Shown piece after piece: positions 1-7,817 of a stretch of DNA of 64,000 bases (position 1 is its first letter; each line of letters starts with the position of its first letter). Source of the DNA: Auriscalpium vulgare (lineage: Eukaryota > Basidiomycota > Agaricomycetes > Russulales > Auriscalpiaceae); the NCBI GenBank assembly GCA_019915015.1, contig JAHBBC010000017.1, positions 1-64,000 of the forward strand, read 5' to 3'. The position numbers and the translations under genes were made by a program. The notes beneath the pieces are model-generated. The model had not been told where the DNA came from. It ran no database searches and saw only the letters and a list, made by a program, of their open reading frames with translations.

Positions 1-180
1 GGCAGTGTGGATACCGCCCCACATGCGCTCCCGCGCTGTGTGGGTCGCGTTCCCATTGCCTGACTGCAGGTCCTGATGAGCCTATAAAGGCGAAACGGGT
101 TCGGCGTCGACATCCCATCGACTCCCCGTTGACCTGCCCCTTCTATAGCGCTCTTCAGTGGTCGCTTCGCTCCCCCTCCC
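1..180 (+). mobile_element. 3' end of a telomere-attached Penelope-like retroelement, outer copy A
   Basis: This segment matches 545-724 almost base for base and is followed directly by CCCTAAA repeats. It contains a full hammerhead ribozyme (66-137) and a 43-nt tail that ends in a C-rich run. Penelope-like elements carry hammerhead ribozymes in their terminal repeats, and the endonuclease-deficient fungal Coprina group attaches to telomeric G-strand ends, leaving the element 3' end next to CCCTAA-type repeats. That is the arrangement here. No reverse transcriptase is visible because the copy runs off the left edge. The assignment to Coprina is an inference from ribozyme plus telomeric junction, not from a protein match. 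Confidence 0.6.
66..137 (+). ncRNA. Type I hammerhead ribozyme, copy 1
   Basis: All core elements are present in order. Stem I is GCAGGTC (66-72) with its perfect complement GACCTGC (131-137). CTGATGA follows at 73-79. Stem II is GCC/GGC closed by TATAAA (80-91), then GAAA (92-95). Stem III pairs ACGGG (95-99) with CCCGT (125-129), with an inner GTCGA/TCGAC helix. The cleavage triplet is GTT (128-130), so self-cleavage is predicted after base 130. Stem I is the open helix, which makes this type I. The role would be processing of the retroelement transcript. The paired stems make a chance match very unlikely. Confidence 0.9.
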
Positions 181-210
181 TAAAACCCTAAACCCTAAAC
201 CCTAAACCCT
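181..210 (+). repeat. Telomeric repeat tract, CCCTAAA type
   Basis: About four units of CCCTAAA (TTTAGGG on the other strand) follow the end of element copy A. The tract ends at CCCT, where a 46-bp copy of the element tail starts. It is interpreted as telomere sequence that was once a chromosome end and was then buried by attachment of copy A. Confidence 0.85.
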
Positions 211-255
211 GCCCCTTCTATAGCGCTCTTCAGTGGTCGCTTCGCTCCCCCTCCC
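208..255 (+). mobile_element. Minimal 46-48 bp copy of the element 3' tail
   Basis: The sequence repeats 133-180 and is bounded by telomeric repeats on both sides. Its left boundary lies 2 nt downstream of the position equivalent to the ribozyme cleavage site (130/131), with CCT shared between the telomeric unit and the element. It looks like a very short reverse transcript added at a telomere end, possibly copied from a ribozyme-cleaved RNA. Confidence 0.7.
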
Positions 256-267
256 CTAACCCTAAAC
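254..267 (+). repeat. Short telomeric repeat remnant
   Basis: CCCTAACCCTAAAC separates the minimal tail copy from the next element copy. One unit is CCCTAA and the next is CCCTAAA, so unit length varies here, unlike the two longer tracts. Confidence 0.7.
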
Positions 268-724
268 GGTTAGGCGCTGGGCGGGTGGGTTAGGAGTGGT
301 GATGTCATCAGCTCTTGTGGGAGCTGATTGCATAATGGTGCCTGCGCTTCTCTGGAAATTTCCGAATTTCCAATTTGCGTTCCCATCGGAATTCTGATTT
401 CCTAATCGGATCGGAATCCGATGGAAGGTTCCTCACCGTTGGTTCGGGTCCGTTCTCACAGGGCATCGCATAATGATGCGAGAACATCGGTCCCGCGCAT
501 GTCGGATCTTGGGAAAGATCCGGCCTTGTCGCGCGGGAAGCGTTGGCAGTGTGGATACCGCCCCACATGCGCTCCCGCGCTGTGTGGGTCGCGTTCCCAT
601 TGGCTGACTGCAGGTCCTGATGAGCCTATAAAGGCGAAACGGGTTCGGCGTCGACATCCCATCGACTCCCCGTTGACCTGCCCCTTCTATAGCGCTCTTC
701 AGTGGTCGCTTCGCTCCCCCTCCC
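268..724 (+). mobile_element. Penelope-like retroelement 3' portion, inner copy B
   Basis: This is the longest copy of the terminal element in the window, about 455 bp. Its final 180 bp match copy A and include the second ribozyme. The 268-544 part has no match elsewhere in the window and holds a hairpin-rich stretch around 355-425. No protein-coding region is recognisable in it, so the copy is probably 5'-truncated and lacks the RT. It is followed by telomeric repeats at 722-752. Confidence 0.6.
610..681 (+). ncRNA. Type I hammerhead ribozyme, copy 2
   Basis: This copy has the same stems and core as the one at 66-137: stem I strands at 610-616 and 675-681, CTGATGA at 617-623, GAAA at 636-639, and cleavage after the T at 674. 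The core and all stems are unchanged between the copies, which is compatible with recent shared origin, selection, or both. Confidence 0.9.
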
Positions 725-752
725 TAAACCCTAAACCCTAAACCCTAAACCC
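722..752 (+). repeat. Innermost telomeric repeat tract at the truncation point of the NLR gene
   Basis: About four CCCTAAA units end in CCCC and continue straight into AT-rich coding sequence of the NLR gene on the minus strand. The last residues of that open frame are encoded by the repeats themselves. This is the expected look of a double-strand break healed by telomere addition. Confidence 0.8.
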
Positions 753-2231: not shown

Positions 2232-2578
2232 TGTAGACTCACGTCTACCACGCGCGGTCACGCGTCCGACGAGGCCGACGCGTGTACCCGTTTCGGAGTG
2301 GTTGTTACTATATACGGATCTTTCTTTTGCTTCTCGCTACTTACGGTTGACACGCTCGTCTTATATACGCGCACGACAGCGCCGTCTCGCTCGTCTCTCT
2401 TTTCCCTCTCCCTCACGTACACGGTGCTAGGTATGTTACGCGCTGGTCTCTCTTTTCCCTCTCCCTCACGTACACGGTGCTAGCACGATATCTCGGCAAT
2501 CATACTCGGTTCCTTTCACGAGCGCCCGACTCCGGACGCCCTCTGAGTGTTGTCGCCGCACGGCGGCTTCCACTTTTT
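2232..2578 (+). repeat. 5' LTR of chromovirus 1
   Basis: The repeat starts TGTAGACTCACG and matches 7828-8121. It differs mainly by an extra 53-bp tandem unit (2392-2444 against 2445-2497). That accounts for the length difference, about 347 against 294 bp. No other difference was noticed by eye, so the insertion appears young. A TATATA-type box lies near 2323. Confidence 0.85.
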
Positions 2579-3102
2579 TTTTGAAAACAAACCGACCGCC
2601 ATCCGCCATCCTGACGACCGCCGCTCGTCGTACACGCTCCGCGACTCGCCTCACGGTGGACCACGGAACCAGGACGGGCCGCACGACCACACGGTCGCTT
2701 CCACCACCCGCCCTTGAACGTCGTCGTTCGCCACGACTCCAGTCGCCCGCCAGCCCCGCGTCAACCGACCTGGCCTCGGCTTTCACGTCCGCAGTGTGGA
2801 CTGAACTCGAGGACTCGCTCCCGCCCACGCCGTCCCCGCTACACCCCGACCGCCCCACGCCTGTCACTGTCCCGCTGCCCGTGTCCCGTCCGCCGTCTCC
2901 GGACGAACCAGCACTCGCCGACGCACCCCTTCCCGTCACCCGTCCGCTTGTCACATACACGTCACCGTCTCCATCGCCGCTGTCACCGCCGCCGCCGCCG
3001 CCCGTCCAGACCGCATATACCCCGCTTCCTCGCCGCCGTCGCTACTACGACTCCGACTCATCCGACTCAGACTCCGAGACCGTCCCACACACACACTCCA
3101 CC

Positions 3103-6024
3103 ATGTCCGCTACCGCCACCGCATGCGTTGAACAGTCGTCCGTTACGAAGCCTCCCACTCTCACTCCGGGCAACGTCTCGCCCGAGGCCCTCCGCGAATT
3201 TCGATACGCCTGCGAGTCGTACCACAAGCACAAGGACATTGCCGTCCTCGACCAAACGAAGATGATCACGGACGGTTTCCAGGATCCCCGCATACGCGAG
3301 TGGGTCCGCGCGCGGCGCGATTACTACGAGGCGCTCCCGTTCGAGGACTTCCTCGTCCTTTTCGGTCGCAGGTGGCTCCAGCCGGGCTGGGAGCTGCGCG
3401 TGTCCAACGCGCTGCTGAACTCGCGCCAAGGTACCCGCCCTTTCGCCGAATGGCAGGTTGAAATGACCTCCAAGAACACCCTCCTCGTTGACACCCCTTC
3501 CTACCTCGATGACGACGCCATGCGACGCAAGCTGAATGCGGGCATGAACATCGACCTCGGTGCGGAGGTACACGACGCCCGCTTCCCTGCGGACATGCCG
3601 CTCGAGGACTGGCTTGACGCCGTCGAGACCCTCGACCTCAAGCGCATCCGCAACGTAGAGAAGATCACGGCCGAAGTCGCCCGCATGGCCCGTGGGCACA
3701 AGGATGCACAGCCTGCCGCCAGCGCCTCACGCTCCGGTTCCTCCTCCAGCGCCCCGCGTGCCGGTGCGGCTGGCGCTCCCTCCCGCGGTGGGCTCCCCAG
3801 GCTCACCGACGAGGACCGCACGCTCCTCAATGCGCATCAAGGCTGTTGCAAGTGCCGCCGTTTTTACGCCGGTCACCGCTCCATCGACTGCAAGGTCGGC
3901 TTCCCGGCGGCCGACACCTACAAACCGCTCACCGAGGAGGCGGCTCAGGCCGCCGCTCGGGCTCAGCAGAAGACCAAGGCCAAGCCTGGGTTCGTCGCCG
4001 CTGTCCTGCCGGCAGTGGATGCGTCGTCCTCCGCGGTCATAGGCGACGGGTCGGAGAGCGATTCGAACGCCATGTACGTCGTCTGCCCCGTTCGCGCTGC
4101 CCCCCTCCGTCCCTCCTCCCCTTCTCCGAGCACACCTCTCGTTGAAGAGCCCATGTTGTGGTATTGCACCGCGACTGGGCCCCGCCCTCTCCACGGGCGC
4201 GGCGCGGAGGTCGAACTAGCTGCCCTTATTGACGACGGCTCACAGGTAGTGCTCGTTCGCGAGAGCGTCGCCGCCAAGCTCGGGCTCCGTCGCCACTGCC
4301 TCGCCAAGCCAATTCCTCTGGGTGCCGCTTTCAGCGCAGGGGGGGATCATACGTTTTCTCAGGATACGTCGTCTGTCGTCGCGACCCATTGGGTCAAATT
4401 ATCACTTTCTTCCTCCGATTCACGTTATCGCGCTCGCTCTGTCCGTGCACTCCTTGCCCCCGACGCTATGTGTATGCCTGTTATCCTCGGCCTCCCGTTC
4501 CTCGTTGCAAATCAAATCATCGTTGACCATCATCTGCGCACGTCCATTCCTAAGGGCTCGGACTACAACATGCTACACGACTACGATGACGACCCTCCCC
4601 CAACCTCTGGTGACGCCCCATCGTCTCCCACACGCGCTGATATTCTTGCGGCCCGCGCGTGCATGGTTGGTGAGCTGACCGCGCGTCTGCTGCCGCAACG
4701 CGCGCACTGCGATCGGTTGGCTGAGCATGTCGCACCGGTGAACATCGTCGCGGCGGTGAAGGTTCGAGTGGCAGCCTTGGCTCATGCGCAAACCCTCCAG
4801 GAGCTTGACTCCCGCATGAAATCCAAGTACGCGGCCCTCTTCCCGTCCGACATCCCTCACCTCGACGACCTGCCGTCCGACGTCTACCATCGTATCCGTC
4901 TCAAAGATGCGAACAAGACGATTGCGACGCGGTCGTACAACTGCCCACGCAAATATCGCGACGCCTGGCGCACGCTACTGGACCAGCACTTATCTGCTGG
5001 TCGCATACGCCCGTCGGCTAGCGAGCACGCGTCCCCCGCGTTCATCATTCCCAAGTCGGATCCCAGTGCATTGCCGCGCTGGGTCAACGACTACAGGATG
5101 TTGAATGCAAACACGGTCCCAGATTCACACCCGCTGCCGCGTGTCGATGACATCCTCGCGGACTGCGCCAAGGGTAAAATCTGGGGGAAGCTGGACATGA
5201 CAAATGCCTTTTTCCAGACGCGTGTGCATCCCGACGACATCCACCTCACTGCAGTCACCACGCCGTTCGGGCTGTACGAGTGGACCGTTATGCCGATGGG
5301 GGGCCGCAACGCCCCGGGCACCCATCAACGCCGTATGACGGCCGCCTTGCGGCAACACATCGGCGTCATTTGCCACGTGTATCTGGACGACATCATCATC
5401 TGGTTGCAGACCGTTGATGAACACATCCAGAACGTTGACACGGTTCTGCGCACTCTTCGCGACGCGCAGCTCTATTGCTCGCTGAAGAAGACGTCCCTGT
5501 TCTGTGAGTCCGTTCACTTCCTTGGCCACGAGATCTCGCGGCGGGGGATTGAAGCGGACCCAACGAAGATTGAGCGGATCATGGACTGGCCCGTCCCGCG
5601 CAACGCGACGGAGGTCCGCGCGTTCCTAGGGCTGGTGCGCTACATCGCCACCTTCCTGCCCCAGCTCGCCGAGCTCACGCGCGTTCTGACGCCTCTGACG
5701 ACGCTCAATGCGCAGCATGACTGGCCGGGGTGGTTCCCGTCCCATCAAGCTGCCTTCGACGGCGTAAAAGCGTTGGTTCTCAGCCGGGAGTGTCTCACCA
5801 CCATAGACCACCAGAATCCCGGCGAGAACAAAATCTGGGTTACGACCGATGCCAGTGATTTCCGCACTGGTGCCGTCCTCTCGTGGGGTCCCACCTGGGA
5901 GAGCGCGCGGCCGGTGGCCTTCGACTCTATGCAGTTGAAGGGTCCGCAGCTAACTACCCGGTCCACGAGAAGGAGCTGCTCGCGATCGTCCGCGCGTTGC
6001 AGAAATGGCGTGTGGACCTTCTAG
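3103..6024 (+). CDS. Chromovirus gag-protease-RT-RNase H (5' part of pol)
   Basis: I take ATG 3103 as the start because CCACCATG is a good context. The same frame is open back to the LTR but has no ATG there and is only proline-rich. Order of domains: capsid-like gag; zinc knuckle of CX2CX6HX4C form near 3844-3890; aspartic protease with a DDGS motif near 4230; reverse transcriptase with YLDD at 5380-5391; start of RNase H near 5840. The frame then leaves the RNase H sequence at about 5950, where homology continues in the next frame. A single-base change there would explain it, so this copy is probably unable to make a full polyprotein. Confidence 0.88.
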   Translation: MSATATACVEQSSVTKPPTLTPGNVSPEALREFRYACESYHKHKDIAVLDQTKMITDGFQDPRIREWVRARRDYYEALPFEDFLVLFGRRWLQPGWELRVSNALLNSRQGTRPFAEWQVEMTSKNTLLVDTPSYLDDDAMRRKLNAGMNIDLGAEVHDARFPADMPLEDWLDAVETLDLKRIRNVEKITAEVARMARGHKDAQPAASASRSGSSSSAPRAGAAGAPSRGGLPRLTDEDRTLLNAHQGCCKCRRFYAGHRSIDCKVGFPAADTYKPLTEEAAQAAARAQQKTKAKPGFVAAVLPAVDASSSAVIGDGSESDSNAMYVVCPVRAAPLRPSSPSPSTPLVEEPMLWYCTATGPRPLHGRGAEVELAALIDDGSQVVLVRESVAAKLGLRRHCLAKPIPLGAAFSAGGDHTFSQDTSSVVATHWVKLSLSSSDSRYRARSVRALLAPDAMCMPVILGLPFLVANQIIVDHHLRTSIPKGSDYNMLHDYDDDPPPTSGDAPSSPTRADILAARACMVGELTARLLPQRAHCDRLAEHVAPVNIVAAVKVRVAALAHAQTLQELDSRMKSKYAALFPSDIPHLDDLPSDVYHRIRLKDANKTIATRSYNCPRKYRDAWRTLLDQHLSAGRIRPSASEHASPAFIIPKSDPSALPRWVNDYRMLNANTVPDSHPLPRVDDILADCAKGKIWGKLDMTNAFFQTRVHPDDIHLTAVTTPFGLYEWTVMPMGGRNAPGTHQRRMTAALRQHIGVICHVYLDDIIIWLQTVDEHIQNVDTVLRTLRDAQLYCSLKKTSLFCESVHFLGHEISRRGIEADPTKIERIMDWPVPRNATEVRAFLGLVRYIATFLPQLAELTRVLTPLTTLNAQHDWPGWFPSHQAAFDGVKALVLSRECLTTIDHQNPGENKIWVTTDASDFRTGAVLSWGPTWESARPVAFDSMQLKGPQLTTRSTRRSCSRSSARCRNGVWTF

Positions 6025-7817
6025 GTTCACATTTCGTCGTACGTACCGATCACCGCACACTGGAGCACTTCCAGACGCAGCGCGAACTCTCACGTCGTCA
6101 ATGTCGCTGGCAGGAATACCTCGCCCAGTATGACTTCGACATCGAGTACGTTCCTGGGCCTGACAACACTGTTGCTGACGCACTGTCGCGTCTCCCGGTC
6201 GAACGCGAGACGTCAACCGTCTCTGCTTTTGCTGCCGCAGTCTGCCTGTCGCGGGTGGTATCCCACCCCGACGCAAGGCTCCCTGTCGTTTGTGCTGTGA
6301 CGCTCCAGATTTCGCAAGACCGTGCGCTCTTGGACTCCATTCGTTCCGGATACAGCGACGACGCGTTCTGCGCCCGTCTGCTCCGGAACTTGGAGAGTGC
6401 TCCAGGCGCGCGCTTGCAGGACGGCCTGCTCTTTGTCGGTGAGCGGTTGGTCGTCCCCCGTACTCCCTCTCTGCGCGAGACCTTTTTCCAGCTCGCGCAC
6501 GACGCTCTCGGTCACTTCGGCGCGGATAAGTCCTATGCCGCGCTCCGGTCGTCTTACTACTGGCCTGGTATGCGCAGAGACTTGGAGCTTGGGTACATCG
6601 CCTCTTGCGCCGAGTGCCAACGAAACAAGTCGCCTTCGGTAAAGCCACCTGGGCCTTTGCACCCTCTATCTGTGCCCGACGCTTGCGGTGACTGCGTCGC
6701 CATCGACTTCATTGGTCCGCTGCCGCCCGACTCTGGTTTCGACACGATCGTGTCCATGACTGATCGCGCTGGCTCCGACGTCCGCCTCGTGCCCGTGAAG
6801 AGCTCTATTACGGCGCCCGAATTCGCGGCTGTCTTCTTCGACCACTGGTTCTGCGAGAACGGACTGCCGCTCGAAATTGTCTCCGACCGCGACAAACTCT
6901 TTGTGTCTCGGTTCTGGCGCGCTCTGCACCGTCTTACGGGTGTAAAACTCAAGATGTCCTCGGCTTTCCATCCACAAACCGACGGTGCGAGCGAGCGAAC
7001 GAACAAGACGGTCAACCAATGCTTGCGTTTCCACGTCGACCGACAACAACGCGGCTGGGTTCGCGCTCTACCGCGCGTCCGTTTCGACATCATGAATACG
7101 GTGAACGCCTCCACGGGTTTCTCACCTTTCCAGTTGCGCATGGGACGCCAGCCTCGCCTTATCCCTCCCCTCGTTCAGCCAGCTGCAGACGCAACGGTGG
7201 CTGAATTCGGCACGGACGGCGAAGCGGCACAACGCATCATCGACCAAATCACTGTAGACTTTGCTGAGGCACAAGACGCGCTTTTCGCTGCAAAACTCGT
7301 ACAGGCCGACACAGCCAACCGTTTACGCGGGCCTGAACACGCTTACGCAGTCGGTGACCGCGTGCTACTCTCCACTTTCCATCGACGGCGCGATTACAAA
7401 GCCAAAGATCCCTCCCGTGTCGCCAAGTTCATGCCCCGTTTTGACGGTCCGTACGAGGTCGTCCGCGCCTTCCCTGATCGCAGCGTCTACACCCTCGACT
7501 TACCCGCCACGTCGGGTATTTTCCCCACTTTCCACGCGAGCCTACTCCGCCCCTTCGTACCTAACGACGACTCCGTCGCACCCTCGCGCGCACTTGCGCG
7601 TCCTGGGCCTGTCGTCGCCGCCGACGGCGAGCACGAGTGGGAAGTCGACGAGATTATTGACCAACGCCGCCGTGGGCGCGGCTATCAATACCTCGTTCGC
7701 TGGCGCGGGTATGGCGACGAAGATCTGCAATGGCTACCCTCGCGCGAGCTCGCCGAGTGTGCTGCCCTGGACCGGTGGCTTGCTCGTGCACCCCCCGGGG
7801 GGAGCTCTTCTTCCTAG
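5943..7817 (+). CDS. Chromovirus RNase H end, integrase and chromodomain
   Basis: This frame takes up RNase H just past 5950. It contains the RNase H to integrase linker ending ADALSRLP, the integrase HHCC zinc-binding region (about 6490-6630), and the catalytic triad D 6705, D 6885 and E 6993 with HPQTDGASER around the glutamate. A C-terminal chromodomain follows (about 7626-7780, containing YLVRWRGYG). The chromodomain places the element among chromoviruses and would direct integration to modified chromatin. There is no independent start codon in a sensible place, so expression depends on the upstream frame. The stop is TAG at 7815. Confidence 0.88.
   Translation, partial: SAANYPVHEKELLAIVRALQKWRVDLLGSHFVVRTDHRTLEHFQTQRELSRRQCRWQEYLAQYDFDIEYVPGPDNTVADALSRLPVERETSTVSAFAAAVCLSRVVSHPDARLPVVCAVTLQISQDRALLDSIRSGYSDDAFCARLLRNLESAPGARLQDGLLFVGERLVVPRTPSLRETFFQLAHDALGHFGADKSYAALRSSYYWPGMRRDLELGYIASCAECQRNKSPSVKPPGPLHPLSVPDACGDCVAIDFIGPLPPDSGFDTIVSMTDRAGSDVRLVPVKSSITAPEFAAVFFDHWFCENGLPLEIVSDRDKLFVSRFWRALHRLTGVKLKMSSAFHPQTDGASERTNKTVNQCLRFHVDRQQRGWVRALPRVRFDIMNTVNASTGFSPFQLRMGRQPRLIPPLVQPAADATVAEFGTDGEAAQRIIDQITVDFAEAQDALFAAKLVQADTANRLRGPEHAYAVGDRVLLSTFHRRRDYKAKDPSRVAKFMPRFDGPYEVVRAFPDRSVYTLDLPATSGIFPTFHASLLRPFVPNDDSVAPSRALARPGPVVAADGEHEWEVDEIIDQRRRGRGYQYLVRWRGYGDEDLQWLPSRELAECAALDRWLARAPPGGSSSS

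Follow-up and report, generated by a model that had tools for sequence, protein, structure and literature searches.

Telomere-attached Penelope-like elements with hammerhead ribozymes in Auriscalpium vulgare, and two copies with starts at or close to the predicted cut

Contig 17 of the basidiomycete Auriscalpium vulgare (JAHBBC010000017.1) opens with two hammerhead ribozyme motifs next to telomere-type repeats, which raises the question of what brought these motifs to the end of the contig and whether they cleave RNA in the cell. We analysed the first 64 kb of this contig (hereafter the window) together with the rest of the 51.6-Mb genome (96 contigs). The window very probably starts in a stack of three 3′-end pieces of an endonuclease-less Penelope-like retroelement attached to the telomere. 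Two copies of this element, one of them in the stack, are best read as the tails of cleaved RNA molecules that were reverse-transcribed onto telomeres and capped, and their starts, at the predicted cut or within a few bases of it, hint at ribozyme activity in vivo.

Ribozymes and stacked copies at the window start

Bases 1–752 of the window consist of three stacked pieces, which contain parts of a pseudo-long terminal repeat (pLTR) and are separated by CCCTAAA or CCTAACCCTAAA letters:

1–184, plus strand: copy 1, a pLTR truncated by the contig start, with ribozyme and tail; 99.5% identical to positions 4701–4884 of the reference element
66–137, plus strand: hammerhead ribozyme 1, type I, recognized by descriptor scan, fold and sequence; predicted cut between 130 and 131
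137–180, plus strand: conserved 44-nt 3′ tail of copy 1, ending in CTCCC before the telomere repeats; the first of these bases also belongs to stem I
178–210, plus strand: CCCTAAA telomere-type repeats, 4.6 units (Tandem Repeats Finder)
208–255, plus strand: copy 2, the tail alone, lacking the ribozyme; its 5′ end lies 2–5 nt past the predicted cut (equivalent to 133–136)
255–730, plus strand: copy 3, a pLTR without the open reading frame (ORF); 99.8% identical to reference positions 4411–4886
610–681, plus strand: hammerhead ribozyme 2, type I, recognized by descriptor scan and fold; predicted cut between 674 and 675
681–724, plus strand: 3′ tail of copy 3, conserved, with a first base that also belongs to stem I
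722–752, plus strand: CCCTAAA repeats where the stack meets other chromosomal DNA (Tandem Repeats Finder)

The 5′ end of copy 3 (reference 4411) falls in degenerate telomere-like repeats of the element.

The two 72-nt ribozymes are identical in sequence and display all parts of the hammerhead structure: three stems around CUGANGA and GAAA, an NUH triplet, and an open end at stem I. In ribozyme 1, a 7-bp stem I (66–72/131–137) is followed by CTGATGA (73–79), stem II (80–82/89–91; 3 bp, or 4 bp when a T-A pair in the loop is included) and GAAA (92–95). Stem III is formed by the A95–T129 pair and 96–99/125–128, plus an inner GTCGA/TCGAC helix, and the cleavage triplet G128 T129 T130 places the cut. 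The original prediction of two complete hammerheads with these elements, cut after bases 130 and 674 and lying next to CCCTAAA repeats, is thus confirmed. A descriptor requiring stem I (5 bp or longer), CTGANGA, stem II (3 bp or longer), GAAA, stem III and a TH that precedes the 3′ strand of stem I matched only these two sites on both strands of the window; in 100 dinucleotide shuffles it matched nowhere. The 72-nt motif folds as a hammerhead at −27.6 kcal/mol (z −3.1), with 1 of 200 shuffles folding equally well. Against this, an Rfam search of the window, proposed as a check on the ribozymes, gave no match at the gathering score. The best sub-threshold matches in that search, to the type III model RF00008, reach 25.1 and 24.1 bits against a threshold of 48.5 (E 0.0085 and 0.016) and, at 594–645 and 50–101, each cover the motif only in part, so that the covariance check fails at the curated threshold. 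This shortfall concerns the database score; the structural features of a hammerhead are themselves in place.

The parent element and its attachment to chromosome ends

Full copies of the element are found on contig C10, where a pLTR, an ORF of 1144 codons and a second pLTR follow each other and each pLTR carries a hammerhead. The element, about 4.9 kb long with both pLTRs and its one ORF, has the pLTRs as well as the tandem arrangement of Penelope-like elements. The ORF had no match of any kind in Pfam at E 1 and none in a sequence search of the PDB; an alignment query of the PDB gave two unconvincing matches (E 0.1–0.13), every NCBIfam match was far under its cut-off, and in a general RVT_1 search the element was absent from the 150 of 293 candidates that were scored. 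At least 120 database relatives were matched, with no informative names among the matches listed. A structural model of one relative had telomerase as its closest match, with many other polymerases among the VIA-align rows ranking below the telomerases. The predicted fold of the reverse transcriptase is thus closest to telomerase, as expected of a Penelope-like element. Neither a GIY nor a YIG tripeptide is present in the ORF, which, like the lack of any Pfam match, agrees with the proposal that the element is endonuclease-deficient.

The stack at the window start contains nothing but parts of the pLTR, the longest of about 0.48 kb, as would be the case if it were made of a non-autonomous retrozyme, a small circular RNA element with hammerheads, instead of Penelope pieces. 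The same repeat, however, flanks the reverse transcriptase ORF on C10 and adjoins reverse transcriptase pieces on other contigs, and its copies are truncated at varied 5′ positions, often with telomere repeats. The link to a Penelope-type reverse transcriptase elsewhere in the genome, which the original prediction had named as one of its tests, largely refutes the retrozyme explanation; we have set it aside as barely credible.

A 28-mer within the tail occurs 29 times in the genome, always exactly, which puts the number of tail copies at 29 or more. These tails are distributed over 12 contigs and all point inward from the nearer contig end. The 3′ end of the copies is invariant through CTCCC, with TAA next in 28 of 29, after which the sequence continues with telomere repeats (at least two in 18 of the 29), with an older copy, into the ORF or into other DNA; two tails on C10 and one on C51 belong to 5′ pLTRs that run on into the ORF. 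The 5′ ends are scattered along the element and are preceded by telomere repeats, the tail of an older copy or a second repeat family. The copies thus carry the signature of the telomere attachment suggested in the original prediction, namely 3′ ends abutting telomere repeats near chromosome ends and 5′ truncation, and they are stacked close to contig ends, in many cases with telomere repeats intervening. Three copies on C27 (at 10564, 33954 and 51951) have both flanks in common, and three on C56 (at 1120, 3163 and 5206), spaced by 2,043 bp, have flanks in common in pairs, which indicates block duplication and not separate insertions.

These arrangements suggest the following mode of attachment, in which the priming and healing steps are inferred. 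The 3′-end pieces would be added one after another to the chromosome end. The element RNA would end with the hammerhead, the 44-nt tail and CCCUAAA; this end would anneal to the TTTAGGG overhang, whose 3′ end would prime reverse transcription. The copy would often stop early, and telomerase would then add new repeats. As the hammerhead lies between the body and the tail, self-cleavage would separate the telomere-priming tail from the coding RNA, and cleaved tails could themselves be reverse-transcribed onto the telomere and then capped.

Copies that begin at or close to the predicted cut

Among the 29 tails, the ribozyme is identical to that of the window in 25, carries one point change in one, is partial in one (on C20, where part of it is retained after an internal deletion) and is absent from two. 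Both tails lacking it have their 5′ ends at the predicted cut or a few bases beyond it. The copy at C13:1605321 reads AAACCC-T-GACCTGCCCC and starts exactly at the first post-cut base, with one letter common to the repeat. The copy at window position 208 reads AAACCCTGCCCC and, owing to the letters CCT that it has in common with the telomere repeat, its start is placed within the 2–5 nt range given above.

We compiled 18 separate 5′ ends by hand, counting the duplicated blocks on C27 and C56 once and leaving out copies cut by a contig end, copies that continue outside the sequence retrieved, and full-length or contig-edge units with a shared pLTR. A copy at C27:25183, which lacks the exact 28-mer, was entered by its 5′ end at 4132, and the C20 copy by its 5′ end at 4269. 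Of the 18 ends, two are no more than 3 nt from the cut (p = 3.2 × 10−4 under a uniform null over the element). Narrower nulls give p = 3.4 × 10−3 within the last pLTR (2 of 6 ends) and, for ends past position 4500 (2 of 3), p = 1.2 × 10−3; when only the exact C13 end is counted, p = 7.4 × 10−3. The position of the cut had been given in the original prediction before the junctions were inspected; the 3-nt margin was chosen after seeing them. No fetched copy starts at the cut of the 5′ hammerhead.

The same element could have produced these two ends by chance or by truncation guided by microhomology, if the reverse transcriptase stopped, or telomerase healed the end, at telomere-like letters; the ribozyme need not then be active. 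The CCT of the window copy is of this kind, and several other junctions match a few letters of CCCTAAA. The C13 copy, on the other hand, begins exactly at the post-cut base with a match of a single nucleotide, and the p values above speak against chance. Furthermore, a reverse transcriptase stalled by an uncleaved, folded stem I would be expected to leave ends near 137/138 and not at 131, since 131–137 were copied; as far as two events allow, run-off at a cleaved end fits better. We take truncation of this sort to be a real possibility, if a somewhat doubtful one.

Several observations weigh against cleavage in the cell: (i) only two events bear on it; (ii) the ribozyme is kept wholly (26) or partly (1) in 27 of the 29 copies, so that most of the copied RNAs were uncleaved at this site; and (iii) folds other than the hammerhead are predicted to be best in longer RNA. 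In a transcript starting at 267 the hammerhead lies 5–10 kcal/mol above the ensemble best whether or not the tail is included, and the folding predictions, in which the loop contacts of real hammerheads have no part, speak for weak and not strong activity. We advance only tentatively, as a reading that falls slightly short of probable, that hammerhead cleavage occurs in vivo in a telomeric Penelope element and that the cleaved tail of about 50 nt, its telomere-complementary end kept, is itself reverse-transcribed onto chromosome ends.

The ribozyme might alternatively be a relic that is carried along and conserved merely because the copies are young. The reverse transcriptase matches are 97–100% identical in all 19 rows, and the two ORFs on C10 differ at 1 of 1144 residues. 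Conservation was assessed in the 23 of 29 copies (15 distinct) that hold the pLTR from GGTTAGG on, in which 22 of 343 columns are variable before the hammerhead, 1 of 72 within it and 0 of 43 in the tail. The hammerhead alone is not distinguishable from the preceding pLTR (Fisher p = 0.15), whereas hammerhead and tail together are less variable (1 of 115 columns, p = 0.014); both values are generous, because the copies are related and duplicated blocks were kept. This difference and the ends at the cut argue against a relic, which we regard as unlikely.

The tail (window 137–180 and 681–724) is nearly complementary to the ribozyme core in the CUGAUGAGCCUAUAAAGG region. An antisense off-switch could follow from this, in which the tail pairs with the core once transcribed and cleavage is confined to the short time before tail synthesis. 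For RNAs that start at 604 or 545, folding predictions indeed show a switch once the RNA passes 695–705, the tail–core pairing being better than the hammerhead fold by 6.5 kcal/mol, and such a switch would be consistent with a low share of cleaved templates. However, 53 of 1000 shuffled tails outcompete the hammerhead as well as the real tail does, which is indistinguishable from chance at 5%, the transcript from 267 is predicted to be misfolded before the tail is made, and the missing loop contacts apply here too. We consider this switch quite improbable and do not claim it.

If cleavage does produce the tail-only copies, cut-site junctions in the genome would serve as a durable trace of ribozyme activity, while the ribozyme itself would act as a switch between copying of the whole element and the addition of tiny caps. 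Should such ends recur in other strains, telomere sequences would provide a simple, countable record of ribozyme cleavage in vivo.

Relation to known elements and neighbouring sequences

The element fits known telomere-attaching Penelope elements, and the fresh, testable observation is that of the cut-site ends. Endonuclease-deficient fungal elements of this type, named Coprina, were reportedly presented by Gladyshev and Arkhipova in 2007, and Cervera and de la Peña are said to have found, in 2014, hammerheads in Penelope elements including fungal ones, whose forms reportedly fold stably as monomers. Like Coprina as described, the present element combines a reverse transcriptase lacking GIY-YIG with attachment to chromosome ends and 5′ truncation followed by telomere repeats.

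Endonuclease-deficient Penelope-like elements, fungal ones included, are described in a 2013 paper (PMC3846280), according to which those of protists and fungi are without the repeat organisation of endonuclease-containing elements; the present element, in contrast, is organized as pLTR-ORF-pLTR with a hammerhead in each pLTR. Penelope-like elements have also been linked to telomeres in the mushroom Agaricus bisporus (PMC7473861). The union of a hammerhead and telomere attachment at one locus, emphasized in the original prediction, is present here but is not new, as it is found in the Terminons of bdelloid rotifers (PMC6431247). As in Terminons and Athena, the hammerhead precedes a 3′ end that carries telomere repeats in reverse complement, and 5′-truncated copies are stacked head-to-tail; unlike these elements of up to 40 kb, the one described here is about 4.9 kb long, has one ORF and a fungal host, separates the ribozyme from the repeats by a 44-nt tail, and has two copies that start at or near the cut (PMC6431247). 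The fungal nature of the genome is indicated by many matches to the Pkinase_fungal model (best E 3.1e-35), although this model also responded in 4 of 14 control genomes, in 2 of them above its cut-off.

Hammerheads in the repeats of Penelope-like elements have been published (PMC6431247, PMC6155905, PMC7761336), and their in vivo role has been termed a mystery (PMC7761336). Those of A. vulgare are likewise of type I and located in terminal repeats, but have a full stem III, whereas the minimal hammerheads are said to be without helix III (PMC7761336, PMC6155905). Poseidon of Anolis (PAc) similarly has a pLTR with a hammerhead and tandem copies but, unlike the present element, possesses GIY-YIG; its hammerhead requires protein, is dispensable for insertion in vitro, and left no trace at the cut among the reads that the study examined in its data sets (PMC11167929). 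Among the papers listed in our literature search, in which subscription journals were thinly covered, none had a title or abstract opening on hammerheads in fungal telomeric Penelope-like elements or on cut-site junctions. In viral contigs, six stretches fit a peptide pattern for relatives, none of which was confirmed, and a hammerhead-core pattern matched 19 viral-contig stretches, by pattern match alone.

Only one ribozyme that is otherwise complete has a point change: in the copy at C51:20723, G128A disrupts one pair of stem III and deprives the GTT triplet of its G. The telomere repeat, as seen at window 178–210 and at the ends of C9, C10, C27 and C56, consists for the most part of CCCTAAA, interspersed with an occasional CCCTAA or CCCTAAAA unit; CCCTAA has been reported as the telomere repeat of another mushroom (PMC11433599).

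A second telomere-attached repeat family has the fixed 3′ end ...CCATGCCCCATAAC, of which there are 17 exact copies and, among the matches listed, none with 1–3 mismatches. Next to their 3′ ends lie telomere repeats, truncated Penelope copies or, with nothing in between, other DNA. In a copy on C27, the body consists of about 27 units of 112 bp (array 3424–6466) and the end lies at 6534; the one copy scanned had no hammerhead core, and its Rfam match was at chance level (E 0.45).

In the window, the telomeric stack is adjoined by a reading frame for an NB-ARC/STAND NTPase on the minus strand (738–2051). Further inward, 2431–7817 contains retroelement reading frames, the first of which matches reverse transcriptase and RNase H, while the second appears by eye to be integrase-like with a chromodomain-like end.
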